Shown here: piece by piece, positions 16,355 through 58,792 of the stretch
Layout of the letters: each line of letters opens with the position of its first letter
Position numbering within the stretch: the stretch's first letter is position 1
Translations under genes and position numbers: made by a program
Assembly: GCF_030867385.1 (NCBI RefSeq)
Contig: NZ_JAPFBJ010000002.1
Span: 411,001 to 475,000 of the forward strand
Length of the DNA stretch: 64,000 nucleotides
Direction: 5' to 3'
Origin: Sphingobium sp. DEHP117
GTDB taxonomy: Bacteria; Pseudomonadota; Alphaproteobacteria; Sphingomonadales; Sphingomonadaceae
Notes under the pieces: model-generated
What the model was told of the DNA's origin: nothing
Database searches by the model: none
Seen by the model: only the letters and a program-made list of their open reading frames with translations

Positions 16355-16956
16355 CGCGCCACAACGCCGCGAACGCGCAGAAAGTCAAGCATCGGCAAAA
16401 GGGGTAAGCCCTGGATCGCGAAATGCGTGCCCTTTATCGCGCTGAACAGCTGTGCGCCCGGTCCCTCAATACGATAGCAGCCGACGCACCAGCGGCATTG
16501 CTCCCAATCCTGGTCCAGATAGGCGGCGATGTAGGAGTCGCTTAACGGGCGCACCGTCAGGCTCGCGGTTTCGATAGCCCGCCACACCGGCACACCGTTT
16601 TCGCACACCACCGCCGCACTGTGGAGCTTGTGCGTCGTGCCGGACAGGCGGCGGAGAATGGCGGCGGCATCGTCCCTGTCCACCGCCTTGTCGAGCATGG
16701 CGCCGTCTTCCAGCTCCAGCGTCTGGTCACAGCCCAGCACCAGGGCGCCCGGCATACGGATCGAAAGCTTCAGCGCCTTGGCCTCGGCCAACGCATCGGC
16801 AAGTTGCCGTGCGCCGTGTCCTTCGGCCCGCAACGCTTCCTTCAGCGCTTCTTCATCCACAGCCGGGGAAACAGCATGATGCGGCACCTGCGCGGCAGTG
16901 AGCATCGCGCGGCGGCTCGCGCTCTGCGAGGCCAGAATCAGCTCAGGCGCGGTCAT
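16351..16956 (-). CDS. maf: Maf-like nucleoside triphosphate pyrophosphatase
   Basis: A 201-residue Maf protein that hydrolyses NTPs, often modified or non-canonical pyrimidine nucleotides, to NMP and pyrophosphate. The N-terminal signature LILASQSASRRAML (S-x-S-x-RR) is at 5-18. VDEEALKEAL follows near 33 and LVLGCDQTLEL near 77, and the tail IQGLPLLPMLDFLR is typical. It overlaps both ppsR upstream and aroE downstream by 4 bases. Confidence 0.92.
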   Translation of the reverse strand: MTAPELILASQSASRRAMLTAAQVPHHAVSPAVDEEALKEALRAEGHGARQLADALAEAKALKLSIRMPGALVLGCDQTLELEDGAMLDKAVDRDDAAAILRRLSGTTHKLHSAAVVCENGVPVWRAIETASLTVRPLSDSYIAAYLDQDWEQCRWCVGCYRIEGPGAQLFSAIKGTHFAIQGLPLLPMLDFLRVRGVVAR

Positions 16957-17810
16957 GATCGCAGTGCCTGCGCCTGTCCATGCTCCTGCTCCTGCTCCCG
17001 CGCCATCAGCCTGTCGTTGAACAGGTTGATGATCGCCGCGGCCGCTTCCTCGATCGAGCGGCGCGTCACATCAATGTGTGGCCAGTCATTGTCCGCGATC
17101 AGGCGGCGGGCAAAGGCCATCTCCTCCTGCACCTTGTCGATATCGACATAGGCGGTCTCCGGCGACTGGTTCAGCGAAAGCAGCCGGTTGCGCCGGATCT
17201 GGACCAGGCGCTCCGGGTTGATCGTCAGGCCCACCACCATCGGATGCTGCAGCTTGTATAGCGCGTCGGGCGGCGGTGACTCGGGCACCAGCGGCACGTT
17301 GGCAGTCTTGTATCCCCGGTTGGCGAGGTAGATCGAAGTCGGCGTCTTGGACGTGCGCGATACGCCCACGAGGACAATATCGGCATCCTCCCAATTCTCC
17401 GGGCCTACACCGTCGTCATGAGCGATCGTATATTGAATGGCGCCGATGCGCGCGAAATAGGCCTCGTCAAGCACATGCTTGCGGCCCGGACGAGTGCGCG
17501 TTTCCTGCCCCAAAATGTTGGACATCGCGTCGGTTGCGCTATCGAGCGGGGCGACATAGGGCAGGCCAAGCGCGCGGCACTTGTGCTCCAGCTTGCGGCG
17601 CAACTCCGGGTTGGCGAGCGTGAACAGCACCAGACCCGGATTGCTGGATATTTCACCCAATATACGTTGCAGATGTTCCTCAGACCGCACCATCGGCCAG
17701 AAATGGCGGATCGCTTCCACATCCTCGAACTGGCCGATCACCGCCTTGGCGATGCTTTCCAGCGTTTCGCCGGTGGAATCCGACAGCAGATGCAGGTGAA
17801 TGCGGCTCAT
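16953..17810 (-). CDS. ppsR: DUF299 kinase/pyrophosphorylase regulatory protein (PpsR/PDRP type)
   Basis: The 285-residue product belongs to DUF299, bifunctional kinase/phosphorylases that switch PEP synthase or pyruvate phosphate dikinase on and off. Diagnostic parts are the N-terminal HLHLLSDSTGETLESIA, the P-loop-like VGVSRTSKTPTSIYLAN near 155 and GLTINPERLVQIRRNRL near 210. Which partner is used is not shown here. The start at 17810 gives the family N-terminus; the frame runs 43 codons further into the origin region without similarity. This is the homologue that borders oriC in Caulobacter (called RP001 there), supporting the origin assignment. Confidence 0.92.
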   Translation of the reverse strand: MSRIHLHLLSDSTGETLESIAKAVIGQFEDVEAIRHFWPMVRSEEHLQRILGEISSNPGLVLFTLANPELRRKLEHKCRALGLPYVAPLDSATDAMSNILGQETRTRPGRKHVLDEAYFARIGAIQYTIAHDDGVGPENWEDADIVLVGVSRTSKTPTSIYLANRGYKTANVPLVPESPPPDALYKLQHPMVVGLTINPERLVQIRRNRLLSLNQSPETAYVDIDKVQEEMAFARRLIADNDWPHIDVTRRSIEEAAAAIINLFNDRLMAREQEQEHGQAQALRS

Positions 17811-18098
17811 GCGCGCAACATTGTTGGGGAGCTGTGGATAAATCAAGGGATAGAAATGCGGATGGTTGCTAAGCCACGATTTTTCCGCCTTCTTCCTGTG
17901 CTTATCCACAGGCTGTCCAGCGGGCGAGATTTGATCCACAGGGGGTGGATAGCGGGGATCGTCAATAATTTGTTAACGATTCCAGTGCCGATTTTTCTTC
18001 CGCCTGTTGGCAAAATTGGGGATGGCGCATAAACCCCGGCTTCAACCGACCAACTCTCAACAACAATTAGAATCTATATTAATAGGATATTAGGACTC
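17811..18098. other. Probable chromosomal replication origin (oriC)
   Basis: The 288 bases between ppsR and hemE hold two perfect DnaA boxes: TGTGGATAA at 17833-17841 and TTATCCACA at 17902-17910, in opposite orientation. A one-mismatch box TGATCCACA lies at 17932-17940, and a weaker GGTGGATAG at 17944-17952. AT-rich tracts follow at 17963-17980 (with TTGTTAAC) and 18061-18095, candidates for the unwinding region. GANTC sites for CcrM-type methylation lie at 17978-17982 and 18070-18074. A TTAACGAT at 17973-17980 resembles a CtrA half-site. Genes on the left run leftward and on the right run rightward. The hemE-oriC-DUF299 order is that of Caulobacter. Confidence 0.85.
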
Positions 18099-19148
18099 AT
18101 GAACGCGGTGCCCTTGAAACCTCTGCTTGCCGTACTCAAGGGTGAACGGTGCAAGCATCCTCCGCGCTGGATGATGCGTCAGGCTGGGCGCTATTTGCCC
18201 GAGTATCGCGCGTTGCGGGCCGAAAAGGGCGGATTCCTCGAGCTGGTCTATGATAGCCCCGCTGCGGCAGAGATCACGCTTCAGCCTTTGCGACGGTTCG
18301 GAACCGGGCCGGAGGGCCTTCAGGCCGCAATTCTGTTTTCGGACATCCTGATCGTGCCCTATGCGATGGGGCAGAAGCTATGGTTCGAGGCGGGCGAGGG
18401 GCCACGGTTGGCGCCCACGCTGCACGAGAGCAGCCTTGACGCCTTGACGTCAGATTTCAGTCGCTATGAGGCGATATATGAGACGGTGCGGCTGGTGAAG
18501 GCGCAGCTCGCGCCGGAGACGACCTTTCTGGGCTTCGCAGGCAGTCCCTGGACGATCGCAACCTATATGGTGGCGGGGCAGGGCAGCAAGGATCAGGGCG
18601 CGGCGCGGCGTATGGCCTATGCCGAACCGGAACGCTTTGCCGCCATCATTGACGCTATCGTTGCTGCGACCGTTCCTTATCTCATCGGCCAGATCGACGC
18701 CGGGGTGGATGCGGTGCAACTGTTTGACAGCTGGGCCGGAAGCCTTTCGCCGCAGCAGTTCGCGCAATGGGTTATCGCGCCCAATCGCGCGATCGTGGAA
18801 CAGGTGCGCGCGGCCCGCCAGGGCGTGCCGATCATCGGCTTTCCCAAGGGCGCGGGCGCCAAGCTGGTCGATTATGCGCGGGAAACCGGCGTGGACGCTC
18901 TCGGACTGGACGAGACCATTGATCCCGCTTGGGCCGATTCAGCGCTTCCGCAAGCTTTGCCGGTACAGGGCAACCTTGATCCGCTGGTGCTGATCGCTGG
19001 AGGCAAGGCGCTCGACGCGGCGATCGACGCCATACTTGCGGCTTTTCCCACCCGCCCCCATATCTTCAACCTGGGGCACGGGATCACGCCCGAGACCCCG
19101 ATAGCGCATGTGGAACAGATGCTGAAGCGGCTGGGGCAAGCAGGATGA
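18099..19148 (+). CDS. hemE: Uroporphyrinogen decarboxylase
   Basis: HemE decarboxylates uroporphyrinogen III to coproporphyrinogen III in haem synthesis. The 349-residue product begins with the signature PPRWMMRQAGRYLPEYR (residues 21-37), containing the catalytic arginines. It continues with QPLRRFG, ILFSDIL with the catalytic Asp near 86, FAGSPWTIATYM near 147, LFDSWAG near 208 and a closing NLGHGITPETP. It is the first gene right of oriC and overlaps hemJ by ATGA. Confidence 0.96.
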   Translation: MNAVPLKPLLAVLKGERCKHPPRWMMRQAGRYLPEYRALRAEKGGFLELVYDSPAAAEITLQPLRRFGTGPEGLQAAILFSDILIVPYAMGQKLWFEAGEGPRLAPTLHESSLDALTSDFSRYEAIYETVRLVKAQLAPETTFLGFAGSPWTIATYMVAGQGSKDQGAARRMAYAEPERFAAIIDAIVAATVPYLIGQIDAGVDAVQLFDSWAGSLSPQQFAQWVIAPNRAIVEQVRAARQGVPIIGFPKGAGAKLVDYARETGVDALGLDETIDPAWADSALPQALPVQGNLDPLVLIAGGKALDAAIDAILAAFPTRPHIFNLGHGITPETPIAHVEQMLKRLGQAG

Positions 19149-23434: not shown

Positions 23435-23450
23435 TGTTCCACGTGAAACA
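23435..23450. promoter_or_regulatory. parS-like centromere site (one mismatch)
   Basis: TGTTCCACGTGAAACA matches the bacterial parS consensus TGTTTCACGTGAAACA at 15 of 16 positions. It lies in the mnmE-mnmG gap, about 3.4 kb before parB and 5.5 kb from oriC, where ParB-nucleated centromeres are expected. Confidence 0.8.
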
Positions 23451-25345: not shown

Positions 25346-26010
25346 GCGAGGACGAGGCGAAAGTCTGGCTCCAGACCCAGTTCGATGTTTCACGTGAAAC
25401 AAAAGCCAGGCTGGAAGGCTATGTCAGCCTGCTGCTGGATGAAGGAGAGCGCCAGAACCTGATCGCAGAATCGACGCGCGCGCATGTTTGGGCGCGCCAT
25501 ATCGTCGATAGCGCCCAGCTTTTGCTGCATGCGCCCCAAGCGCAACCGGAAGCAAAGTGGATCGACCTCGGGTCTGGCGCAGGCCTGCCGGGCATCGTCA
25601 TCGCTATCCTCTCGGGCTATCAGGTGACAATGATTGAGATGCGGCGCAAACGTGCGGAGTTTCTGGAAGCGGTGGTTGCAGCGCTCAATCTGGCGAACGC
25701 GCGCATATTCTGCGGCAAGACCGAGCGAGCGGAAACCCCTGTTCCGGCCACGGTCATCAGCGCGCGGGCCTATGCCCCGATGGAGCGGCTGATCCCGTCT
25801 GCGCTGCATCTCGCGAACTTTTCCACAACTTGGTTGCTGCCGAAGGGGCAAAACCATCAGAATGAGTTGGCCATCGCACAGAGGCTATGGCATTGTGAGG
25901 CGAGCGCAGAGCCGAGCGTTACCGCGCGGGACAGCGCGATACTCAGGCTCCGCCACGTGCAAATGCAGCGCCGTGGCGCAAAAACCGGAAAGGCAGGCGG
26001 CAGAGCATGA
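25342..26010 (+). CDS. rsmG: 16S rRNA (guanine527-N7)-methyltransferase RsmG
   Basis: RsmG (GidB) methylates G527 of 16S rRNA with SAM. The 222-residue product has the SAM motif [17 protein letters not shown] near 75, the family segment [14 protein letters not shown] near 97 and [13 protein letters not shown] near 139. A perfect parS site lies within its 5' part (25386-25401) and encodes part of DVSRETK. It overlaps mnmG and parA by 4 bases each. Confidence 0.95.
25386..25401. promoter_or_regulatory. Perfect parS centromere site
   Basis: TGTTTCACGTGAAACA is a perfect 16-bp palindrome identical to the universal parS consensus. It is embedded in the rsmG reading frame, 1.4 kb upstream of parB. 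Intragenic parS sites near parAB and oriC are usual. Confidence 0.93.
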
Positions 26011-26798
26011 TCCGTATCGCAATCGCCAACCAGAAGGGCGGGGTCGGCAAGACGACGACCGCAATCAATCTGGCGACCGCTCTTGCCGCCACCGGGCTGC
26101 GCACGCTGCTGATCGACCTTGATCCGCAGGGCAATGCGTCGACCGGCCTTGGTATCAGCCACTCCTCGCGCGAATATTCCAGCTATGACCTGCTCATGGG
26201 CGAGGCAAGTCTGGCCGAGGCAGTGTTGCACAGCCGCGTGCCCAAGCTGGATATCATCACGGCGACGCAGGATCTTTCCGGGGCCGAAATCGAATTGATT
26301 GACGTGGCCGAGCGCACGCATCGGCTCAAGAACGCCTTGGACTCCGCCGCAGCGCAGTGGGACATCTGCTTGATTGATTGCCCCCCCTCGCTCGGTCTGC
26401 TCACCGTGAATGCGCTGGTCGCCGCGCAATCGCTGCTGGTGCCGCTGCAGTGCGAGTTTTTCGCGCTGGAAGGCCTGTCGCAGCTGCTCACCACGGTGGA
26501 GCGTATTCGCGGCCGCTTCAACCCCGATCTCTCGATCATGGGTGTGGCGCTCACCATGTATGACCGGCGCAACCGCCTGACCGATCAGGTGGCGGACGAT
26601 GTGCGTGCCTGCCTTGGCACGTTGGTGTTCGACACCGTGATCCCACGCAACGTCCGGCTTTCCGAAGCGCCGAGCCATGGGCTGCCCGCGCTGATCTATG
26701 ACCATCGCTGTTCAGGGTCAGAGGCCTATATGCAGCTTGCACGAGAGTTGATCGGGCGTCTGCCGCAGCCCGAGCCCCGGCCGGAGATGGCGGCATGA
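26007..26798 (+). CDS. parA: Chromosome partitioning ATPase ParA
   Basis: ParA/Soj is a deviant Walker ATPase that moves ParB-parS complexes over the nucleoid. The 263-residue product opens with IAIANQKGGVGKTTTAINLA (deviant Walker A, signature Lys within KGGVGKT, residues 10-16) and has LLIDLDPQGNAST near 36. The Walker B IDCPPSLGLLTVNAL lies near 125. The short N-terminus without a DNA-binding domain is the chromosomal type. It overlaps rsmG and parB by 4 bases each. Confidence 0.96.
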   Translation: MIRIAIANQKGGVGKTTTAINLATALAATGLRTLLIDLDPQGNASTGLGISHSSREYSSYDLLMGEASLAEAVLHSRVPKLDIITATQDLSGAEIELIDVAERTHRLKNALDSAAAQWDICLIDCPPSLGLLTVNALVAAQSLLVPLQCEFFALEGLSQLLTTVERIRGRFNPDLSIMGVALTMYDRRNRLTDQVADDVRACLGTLVFDTVIPRNVRLSEAPSHGLPALIYDHRCSGSEAYMQLARELIGRLPQPEPRPEMAA

Positions 26799-27784
26799 GC
26801 GGAGAAGGAGGGGCGAGCCTGATGGCGGATAACGGTGCTGGCGGTGAGAAGGCGAAGGCTTTGAGCCGCCCGCGTGGGTTGGGGCGCGGACTTTCGGCCT
26901 TGCTGGGCGAGGCGCATGGGGAGGAGCCGGCAAACGCCGCGCGCGCGGAGGGCGGCGGTGCCGCTCCGGCGGGTCGTGTCGTTCATCATCTTGATATTTC
27001 AGCCATTTCTCCACACCCTGATCAGCCGCGCCGCAGTTTTGACGAAGCTGCCCTGCAGGAGTTGACGGACAGCATCGCCCAGCGCGGCGTGATCCAGCCC
27101 ATCCTCGTCCGGGAAATGGAACCGGGGCGTTACCAGCTGGTGGCAGGGGAACGGCGCTGGCGCGCGGCGCAGCGGGCGCGTCTCCACCAGATCCCGGCGA
27201 TCATCCGCCCGCTTTCGGATGCGGAGACGCTGGAAATAGCGCTGATCGAGAACATCCAGCGGCAGGATCTCAATCCGGTCGAGGAAGCGGAGGCATGTTC
27301 GCGGCTGATCGCGCAATTCGGGCATAGCCAGGAAGCCTTGGGCAAGCTGGTGGGCAAATCTCGCAGTCATGTCGCGAACCTGATGCGTCTGCTCGACCTT
27401 CCGGCCTCTGTGCTGGAAGCTGTGCGGGGCGGCCAGCTGGGCATGGGCCATGCCCGCGCGTTGATCGGCGTTGAGGGCGCGGCGCAGCTCGCACGCCAGA
27501 TCATCGAGCGCGGGCTTTCGGTGCGGCAGGTGGAAAAGCTGGCGCAGCAAGCCAAGGGCCGGGAGGCAAAAGGCGAGGCCGCACCGAAAAAGCTTCGCGC
27601 TGGTGCGGAGAACGGTGCGCGCGATGCGGATATCGTTGCGCTGGAGCAGCATCTGGCTGACCTGATCGGCGTGAAGGTGTCGATCGATCATGCGGTGGGT
27701 GGAGGCGGCGCGCTGACGCTGCGCTATTCGACGCTCGATCAGCTCGATATGCTGTGCCAGCGTCTTTCCGGCGACGCGATTTGA
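26795..27784 (+). CDS. parB: Chromosome partitioning protein ParB
   Basis: ParB binds parS, clamps and slides on DNA by CTP hydrolysis and stimulates ParA. In this 329-residue protein the N-terminus has RGLGRGLSALLGE (28-39, the ParA-contact region). The CTP-binding segments follow: PHPDQPRRSFDEAAL near 73, LVAGERRWRAAQ near 115 (GERR 118-121) and ENIQRQDLNPVEEA near 152. A helix-turn-helix near 175-200 includes VGKSRSHVANLMRLL, and a C-terminal dimerisation domain ends the protein. The ATG at 26795 overlaps the parA stop; an ATG at 26822 is possible. Confidence 0.95.
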   Translation: MSGEGGASLMADNGAGGEKAKALSRPRGLGRGLSALLGEAHGEEPANAARAEGGGAAPAGRVVHHLDISAISPHPDQPRRSFDEAALQELTDSIAQRGVIQPILVREMEPGRYQLVAGERRWRAAQRARLHQIPAIIRPLSDAETLEIALIENIQRQDLNPVEEAEACSRLIAQFGHSQEALGKLVGKSRSHVANLMRLLDLPASVLEAVRGGQLGMGHARALIGVEGAAQLARQIIERGLSVRQVEKLAQQAKGREAKGEAAPKKLRAGAENGARDADIVALEQHLADLIGVKVSIDHAVGGGGALTLRYSTLDQLDMLCQRLSGDAI

Positions 27785-57822: not shown

Positions 57823-58248
57823 TCAGAGGAGGGCCGACATACTCTTTGCAGGAAGTGCGCCAGTCCGCGCTGCGATATCGGCAAGGGAATAGCGCCGCAA
57901 CACGTCAAGAAAGGCTGATAGCGCCTGGCCGAACAGGCCTTGCAGGCCACAGTCTCCCCCGATGCGGCAGGTTCCGCACGCTGCAATGCTAAGGTCCGAT
58001 TCCATTGCGAGCACCACCTCGCCAATGTTGATGTCACCGGGTTCGCGCGCCAGCTTGATGCCGCCGTAGCGGCCACGCACGGCGGTTACAAATCCCTTTT
58101 TGCCGAGCTGATGTACCACCTTCATCAAGTGGTTGTGCGAGATTCCATAGTGGGCGGCGATCGCGCTGATCGCGCAATGCTGGTCGGCGTTCTTCGCCAG
58201 ATACAGCAATACGCGCAATGCAAAATCGGTATGTCGGGTCAATTGCAT
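57823..58248 (-). CDS. nsrR: Rrf2-family regulator, NsrR-like
   Basis: A 141-residue Rrf2 protein. The winged helix carries YGISHNHLMKVVHQLGKKGFV near 34 and RGRYGGIKLA near 58. An iron-sulfur region has Cys91, Cys94 and Cys100 (CGTCRIGGDC), and Asp8 (HTDFA), a ligand in NsrR, is present. NsrR senses nitric oxide through a [4Fe-4S] cluster and represses NO-detoxification genes. It is divergent from a globin gene with an NsrR-type palindrome between them, which supports the assignment. Confidence 0.88.
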   Translation of the reverse strand: MQLTRHTDFALRVLLYLAKNADQHCAISAIAAHYGISHNHLMKVVHQLGKKGFVTAVRGRYGGIKLAREPGDINIGEVVLAMESDLSIAACGTCRIGGDCGLQGLFGQALSAFLDVLRRYSLADIAARTGALPAKSMSALL

Positions 58249-58307
58249 CGCTCGGTTCCGATCAGGTTATACATATATATAGATTGCATCATTGGAGAAT
58301 GATATAT

Positions 58308-58328
58308 AGATGTATCTGAAATACATTG
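58308..58328. promoter_or_regulatory. NsrR-like operator in nsrR-globin intergenic region
   Basis: ATGTAT-CTGAA-ATACAT (58310-58326) is a palindrome close to the NsrR box pattern ATGCAT-N5-ATGCAT. It lies 17 bases upstream of the globin ATG at 58343 and in the divergent control region. An ATG at 58310 overlaps the first arm but is judged not to be the start, because GGAG precedes the ATG at 58343. Confidence 0.7.
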
Positions 58329-58342
58329 AAGATGGAGACAGT

Positions 58343-58792
58343 ATGAGCGAGCCCCTGAACGAAACCACGATAGCTCTGGTTAAGGCGACAGCGCCTGCCA
58401 TCCAGCAACATGGCCTCGCCATCACCCAAAGGATGTACGAGCGGCTCTTTGTGAACGAGGACGTGAAAGCGATGTTCGATCAGGCTGCCCAGCAAAGCGG
58501 CGAGCAGCCCAAGCGCCTCGCTGCCGCCATTCTCGCTTATGCCCAGAATATCGACAAGCTTGAGGCGTTGACGGCTCCGGTTATGCGCATGGCTGCGCGC
58601 CATGTGGAGACGGGGGTCAAGCCTGAGCATTATCCGCTGGTCGCGGAAGCCCTGTTGCCTGCCATACGCGATGTCTTGAAAGATGCCGCAACCGACGAAA
58701 TCCTTGCGGCGTGGGGCAAGGCTTACTGGTTCCTGGCTGACATATTGATTGGCAAGGAAGCCGGGCTTTACGCGGAAATCGAGGCGAGGTGA
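58343..58792 (+). CDS. Single-domain globin (NO-detoxifying type)
   Basis: A 149-residue globin like the haem domain of flavohaemoglobin. It shows TyrB10 as Y32 in MYERLF, proximal HisF8 as H87 in AARHVETGVKPEHY, and W123 in LAAWGKAYWF. No FAD or NAD(P)H reductase domain follows, so it would need an external reductase. ATG at 58343 has GGAG nine bases upstream; an ATG at 58310 would put a regulatory palindrome in the coding sequence. NO scavenging under NsrR control is the likely role. Confidence 0.9.
   Translation: MSEPLNETTIALVKATAPAIQQHGLAITQRMYERLFVNEDVKAMFDQAAQQSGEQPKRLAAAILAYAQNIDKLEALTAPVMRMAARHVETGVKPEHYPLVAEALLPAIRDVLKDAATDEILAAWGKAYWFLADILIGKEAGLYAEIEAR

Follow-up and report, generated by a model that had tools for sequence, protein, structure and literature searches.

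Does the divergent intergenic region between ppsR and hemE of Sphingobium sp. DEHP117 contain the chromosomal origin of replication, oriC? The region lies in the window, by which we mean the whole 64-kb stretch of DNA analysed, itself taken from contig C2 of a genome that totals 3.59 Mb in five contigs, and the first-pass annotation had proposed it as an origin from its DnaA boxes, AT-rich tracts, GANTC sites, CtrA-like half-site, strand switch and flanking genes. Judging from sequence comparisons, this reading is very probably right, and the segment would be an oriC of the type located, as in Caulobacter, at hemE/DUF299: it is supported by a conserved box cluster, by the hemE/DUF299 flanks, by the only two parS-like sites of the genome 5-7 kb away, by an AT tract and, in relatives, by a position opposite the terminus.

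The region is bounded by the minus-strand start of ppsR (17810) and the plus-strand start of hemE (18099) (Table 1), and its GC content is 48%, versus 65% in the window. At least seven genes had been said to run away from it on each side; we found ten with family matches on the minus strand to the left (ppsR, maf-like, aroE, coaE, dnaQ, S30AE, PTS-EIIA, 4HBT, DUF1491 and a cell-wall hydrolase) and eleven on the plus strand to the right (hemE, hemJ-like, rho, YjbE-like, mnmE, mnmG, rsmG, parA, parB, a nitroreductase and a dicarboxylate symporter), the maf and hemJ assignments being strong matches that nevertheless fall under the NCBIfam curated cut-offs. The claimed likeness to the Caulobacter origin also held, the region lying between hemE and a DUF299/COG1806 gene as in Cori (PMC1914354, which, like the other papers below, is cited from excerpts of its text).

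This gene arrangement is widely shared. Divergent ppsR stands beside hemE in 79 of 80 hemE loci from relatives, of which the nearest to this genome are Sphingobium (HemE identity 88-89%); the exception, locus L069, had no ppsR next to hemE and was left out, so that the 80-region counts given here comprise 79 relatives plus the window. At class level, hemE lies divergently beside a DUF299 gene in all 30 best-scoring loci, our own included (the search covered 144 genomes, of which 100 matched and 44 lacked a DUF299 match), and 26 of these 30 carry at least one DnaA box within one mismatch, with none in the other four.

We next examined the DnaA boxes themselves. The 80 intergenic regions together hold 258 boxes within one mismatch, whereas 20 rounds of shuffling gave 5.2 on average and 9 at most, a control that, like the others on aligned relatives, takes no account of shared ancestry. 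Every region has such a box, and a perfect box is present in 64 and absent from 16. The two perfect and two weaker boxes originally annotated in the window are the same four positions that stand out in the alignment. A purely accidental grouping of 9-mers in AT-rich DNA between two genes is therefore barely credible: so short a motif is often matched with one mismatch (124-149 times in the 1.36-1.68 Mb examined), but the excess over shuffles falls at the same positions and orientations, and this conservation already refutes such a reading. Perfect boxes, which number six genome-wide, also speak against it. The scans used general consensuses for DnaA boxes, parS, KOPS, dif, CtrA, IHF and CcrM GANTC sites; forms of the DnaA, CtrA and IHF motifs are also given in the excerpted PMC1914354.

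Table 1 Features of the ppsR-hemE region and its surroundings (window coordinates)
Feature	Position	Strand	Basis or remark
oriC (very probable), divergent ppsR-hemE intergenic region	17811..18098	.	288 bp, 48% GC
ppsR (PF03618/DUF299, COG1806)	16953..17810	-	family match
hemE, uroporphyrinogen decarboxylase	18099..19148	+	family match
DnaA box TTATCCACA, perfect	17833-17841	-	aligned site with <=2 mismatches in 63/80 loci
DnaA box TTATCCACA, perfect	17902-17910	+	aligned site with <=2 mismatches in 60/80 loci
DnaA box TGATCCACA, 1 mismatch	17932-17940	+	aligned site with <=2 mismatches in 60/80 loci
DnaA box CTATCCACC, 2 mismatches	17944-17952	-	<=2 mismatches in 74/80 loci; most conserved site
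CtrA-like half-site TTAACGAT	17973..17980	+	no second half at 7-bp spacing
GANTC (CcrM site)	17978..17982	.	motif scan
GANTC (CcrM site)	18070..18074	.	motif scan
GANTC (CcrM site)	18094..18098	.	motif scan
Conserved block CTGTTGGCAAA, probable -35 region (TTGGCA) of hemE promoter	18004..18014	+	conservation
Conserved trinucleotide-periodic array CCAACTCTCAACAACAATTAG	18050..18070	+	alignment; beside AT tract
Most AT-rich 30-mer of the window and probable DNA-unwinding element	18062..18091	.	
parS, 1 mismatch	23435..23450	.	genome scan
parS, perfect TGTTTCACGTGAAACA	25386..25401	.	genome scan
parA	26007..26798	+	family match
parB	26795..27784	+	family match

The distribution of boxes across the genome is similarly distinctive. 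The window contains 13 boxes within one mismatch versus 3.8 expected, a number reached in none of 100 shuffles. Two of the six perfect boxes of the genome lie here, 69 bp apart, and no other two perfect boxes in the genome are less than 1 kb from each other. Nowhere else in the 1.676 of 3.59 Mb examined do three boxes with at most one mismatch fall within 300 bp. Judged by perfect boxes genome-wide and by one-mismatch clusters over those 1.676 Mb, the cluster is unusual for its genome, as looked for in origins of the hemE/DUF299 type. Could the boxes nonetheless form a datA/DARS-like titration or regulatory site for hemE and ppsR, with replication starting elsewhere? The region must hold divergent promoters, a conserved block upstream of hemE resembles a promoter, and another box pair 18 kb to the left of oriC has no origin-like cluster around it. 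Against this stand the lack of a second three-box cluster in the same 1.676 Mb and of another perfect pair within 1 kb genome-wide, the occurrence of parS-like sites only near here, and a terminus opposite hemE in relatives; we thus consider a purely regulatory role very unlikely. The promoter-like block is assigned to hemE from conservation only, because a sigma-70 scan of positions 17600-18200 returned no promoter. The box pair to the left consists of a perfect box and, 12 bp from it, one with a single mismatch (C2:410600/410612; L108 19600-19620); it stands upstream of what on visual reading looks like an ORF, and may be a promoter regulated by DnaA or a site that titrates it.

An origin identity is further consistent with the segregation genes. 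Only two parS-like sites (at most two mismatches) occur in the whole genome, 5.3 and 7.3 kb from oriC, where they flank most of mnmG just before parAB, and thus parS and parAB are both close by, as looked for in bacterial origins; parAB is found near the origin in almost all genomes analysed by PMC8116508, as excerpted. The dnaA gene is at C2:368 kb, ~60 kb from the ppsR-hemE region, a distance that counts against an origin here; the same paper describes dnaA as not conserved near the origin in Sphingomonadales, as in this genome. The model of the DnaA ATPase domain also matches six same-scoring 281-aa open frames (C1:316979, C1:1289656, C2:138287, C2:850295, C3:441539 and C3:661555), with scores far under that of dnaA; these probably belong to a single insertion sequence as its IstB-type helper genes.

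Replication polarity gave a more mixed picture. A GC-skew minimum at the origin had been suggested as a check of the annotation; over C2:170-780 kb, cumulative skew passes a shallow local low at ~400-430 kb (about -3340), continues as noise and is lowest at 748 kb (-4757), not at ppsR-hemE. Within the window alone, the minimum is at 16-18 kb. Skew was sampled on all five contigs and read continuously over C2:170-780 kb with 5,000 masked bases; it was also noisy in the two relatives sampled, where it was not used, and according to the excerpted PMC1914354 it is insufficient in several alphaproteobacteria. We dropped it as an origin locator, as it neither confirms nor pinpoints the site, and counted it as evidence against.

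The skew minimum bears on a further scenario, in which the ancestral origin is conserved but initiation has moved in this strain, for example towards C2:748 kb or to an RPA-family RepA-type initiator encoded at C2:29.5 kb on the same contig. The surroundings of the minimum (C2:740-760 kb) hold two isolated one-mismatch boxes only, with no perfect box, parS or box cluster; the RepA gene belongs, together with those for ParA, TraG and a DUF3363 relaxase, to an integrated conjugative-type element; and both perfect boxes at ppsR-hemE are intact. Such a move appears more improbable still than a purely regulatory role of the boxes. A second, RepA-driven origin on C2 was likewise rejected because of the location of RepA inside that element. 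The element, on the contig that bears oriC, comprises a RovC-type regulator, DUF736, RPA-family RepA, ParA, a transglycosylase, the DUF3363 relaxase and a TraG/T4SS coupling protein (positions 6651-17635 of C2:20001-40000, L111), and presumably resembles Tn4371-family elements.

To return to the ppsR-hemE region as origin, the orientation of KOPS (GGGNAGGG) is partly as expected. In C2:170-780 kb, 53 forward and 19 reverse copies lie to the right of the site and 21 of each to the left (Fisher p 0.015), so that the expected bias is present on the right arm only and the left arm is balanced, not reversed. The cumulative KOPS minimum falls at 244 kb with GGGNAGGG or 294 kb with GGGCAGGG and, like the balanced left arm, weighs against the site; a separate search for GGGCAGGG in five genomes, which listed some of the matches, was not used for positions. 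On C1, of which 470 kb were covered, KOPS are mostly forward (89/15) to the left of ~968 kb and mostly backward (4/42) to the right, and exactly at this switch lies a single dif sequence (C1:968522-968542), found by a loose scan of the switch after a first pattern had given no match at up to three mismatches; the pattern was refined after that sequence had been seen, and in its refined form matches once in this genome. The dif of this strain and its oriC are on separate contigs, C1 and C2.

Relatives with chromosome-sized contigs, which we treated as circles, allowed both ends of replication to be compared. The refined dif pattern matched on other contigs only in Sphingobium sp. 15-1, with two mismatches and outside the KOPS switch in Erythrobacter, and nowhere in S. 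daechungensis; the termini of Sphingobium sp. 15-1 and Erythrobacter were placed by KOPS alone. In Sphingobium sp. 15-1, hemE is at 2.527 of 3.412 Mb, its antipode at 0.821 Mb and the sampled KOPS switch at 0.82-1.00 Mb, while in Erythrobacter EC-HK427 the corresponding values are 1.051 of 3.123 Mb, 2.613 Mb and 2.52-2.70 Mb; the origin-side switch is broad in both. In Sphingorhabdus sp. 109, whose contig measures 3.565 Mb, dif at 1.032 Mb and hemE at 2.598 Mb delimit arms of 44:56.

We then turned to regulatory sites. The GANTC sites mentioned in the first-pass annotation are three in number (Table 1), and the motif is threefold enriched across the 80 regions (322 versus a shuffle mean of 111, maximum 128) and present in all of them, with one or two copies only in each of the six closest relatives (L002-L007). 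The genome encodes a RAMA-domain protein that is probably CcrM; of 14 control genomes, Caulobacter alone matched. The CtrA-like half-site is indeed there, one of two TTAA in the region (17973 and 18079), yet it is not evidence for CtrA control, as neither the full site (TTAA-N7-TTAA) nor the looser TTWW-N7-TTWW occurs in the ppsR-hemE region of the window. Full sites number nine, in nine of the 80 aligned origins (shuffle mean 0.3), and looser ones 50, in 31 origins (shuffle mean 19.7, maximum 31), and thus CtrA sites may have been kept in some relatives. In this origin, judging from its motifs, CtrA repression of the Caulobacter type is not supported. Full CtrA sites mark Caulobacter-style control and not oriC itself, because related origins without them are reported in the excerpted PMC1914354. 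The IHF motif WATCAA-N4-TTR is absent from the region in the window and present in 1 of 80 loci; a shorter IHF-like core, TCAA-N4-TTR, occurs once in the region and 46 times in 44 of the 80 loci (shuffle mean 8.2 occurrences).

The hemE side of the region holds the most AT-rich DNA of the window, in keeping with the AT content and AT-rich tract looked for in hemE/DUF299-type origins. The AT-rich tracts noted earlier were borne out in that only the 30-mers starting at 18062 and 18063 contain at least 25 A/T, though by nearest-neighbour energy the tract (18004-18100) ranks second. DNA at ~58268 (58247-58350), in which no DnaA box of up to one mismatch lies, is less stable than any other in the window. 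The trinucleotide-periodic array next to the AT tract is the one under-described feature of the locus. At least three consecutive A[ACT]C triplets occur in 38 of the 80 regions versus 2.5 in shuffles (maximum 10), counts that are inflated by shared ancestry among the relatives, and self-matching is in excess at two lags, 3 (0.371 versus 0.289) and 7 (0.347 versus 0.287). Some relatives (L010, L034, L045) have CTACTA at the array, which is complementary to the 3'-GAT-5' trio of the excerpted PMC8287927; in the window the array lacks this sequence.

Could the array be the DnaA-trio part of a basal unwinding system? Requiring central-A trios no more than 16 bp away from a DnaA box, by motif comparison and not with the published program, we rejected this candidate: the array is ~100 bp from the nearest conserved box, which ends at 17952, and in the window it has no run of 3'-GAT-5' trios. 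A box on the unwinding side (at most two mismatches, aligned at 18039) is present in nine of 80 loci and not in the window, and both this scarcity and the 16-bp rule kept us from classing the array as such a system. A tentative and rather doubtful proposal is that Sphingomonadales origins open at a displaced, deviant trio-like array (CAA/ATC/CTA type, 18050-18070) some 100 bp from the four boxes, with GANTC kept and no CtrA site here; DnaA would reach it by looping or via a weak box on the unwinding side, still visible in a few relatives (e.g., Erythrobacter EC-HK427, L080) and decayed here.

In bacteria generally, DnaA-ATP binds its boxes, oligomerises and opens an AT tract. Here, DnaA would bind the four conserved boxes between 17833 and 17952 and then form an oligomer, which would open the hemE-side AT tract at ~18050-18096; DnaB would be loaded and two forks would depart in opposite directions. 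ParB, acting at both parS sites (5-7 kb rightward of the origin), would separate sister origins, and CcrM methylation at GANTC, suggested by the enrichment of the motif and the RAMA-domain gene, may mark newly copied ones.

Compared with known systems, the closest in layout is Cori of Caulobacter crescentus, which we take to share also the GANTC sites and parAB near the origin. Beyond its flanks, Cori has DnaA boxes and an AT-rich tract in common with our region, but carries five footprinted CtrA sites (PMC1914354), whereas here there is a single half-site. The predicted oriC of Sphingopyxis granuli TFA likewise adjoins hemE, with conserved boxes and a putative unwinding element in the intergenic region and a conserved neighbourhood (PMC4741004); it belongs to another genus and was compared by description, not box by box. 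The basal unwinding system of Bacillus subtilis (PMC8287927, PMC6669920) similarly combines DnaA boxes, a trinucleotide-periodic array and an AT tract on one side, but the spacing here far exceeds the 16-bp program maximum and its trio run is lacking from the array in the window. An oriC next to hemE has already been predicted for most Sphingomonadaceae, per DoriC as cited in the excerpted PMC4741004, and for Novosphingobium PP1Y a predicted origin with three boxes is described close to hemE (PMC4059872). In this respect the present locus is a correct, ordinary further case.

For this genome, the assignment would fix the replication start and an origin-proximal, high-dosage neighbourhood that includes parAB, parS, rho, mnmE, mnmG and hemE. 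Across the Sphingomonadales examined, the conserved origin elements are the four DnaA boxes, GANTC and the hemE-side AT tract with its trinucleotide array, full CtrA sites being patchy. These elements bear on the building of replicating vectors and on replication timing in alphaproteobacteria without a CtrA site at the origin.

Relatives also differ in several details, of which the regions lacking a perfect box, the missing ppsR of L069 and the extra box pair described below weigh against the origin reading, as do the few GANTC sites of the six closest relatives and the broad origin-side KOPS switch. Sphingorhabdus sp. 109, L002, L003 and Sphingobium sp. 15-1 each have two perfect boxes 69-112 bp apart at hemE; in the last of these, another such close pair stands at 630.5 kb, well away from hemE. 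No perfect box is present at hemE in Erythrobacter EC-HK427 or in L069, the latter a locus on the complete chromosome of Sphingomonas daechungensis in which a perfect box is absent from the entire 21 kb and dnaQ is ~1.6 kb closer to hemE, which suggests that genes were lost at the origin flank. In many Sphingobium loci (e.g., L008-L013, L015-L019 and L021-L030), the left side is conserved and rho, mnmG and parB were not found right of hemE in the stretch examined, suggesting a rearrangement just to the right of the origin.
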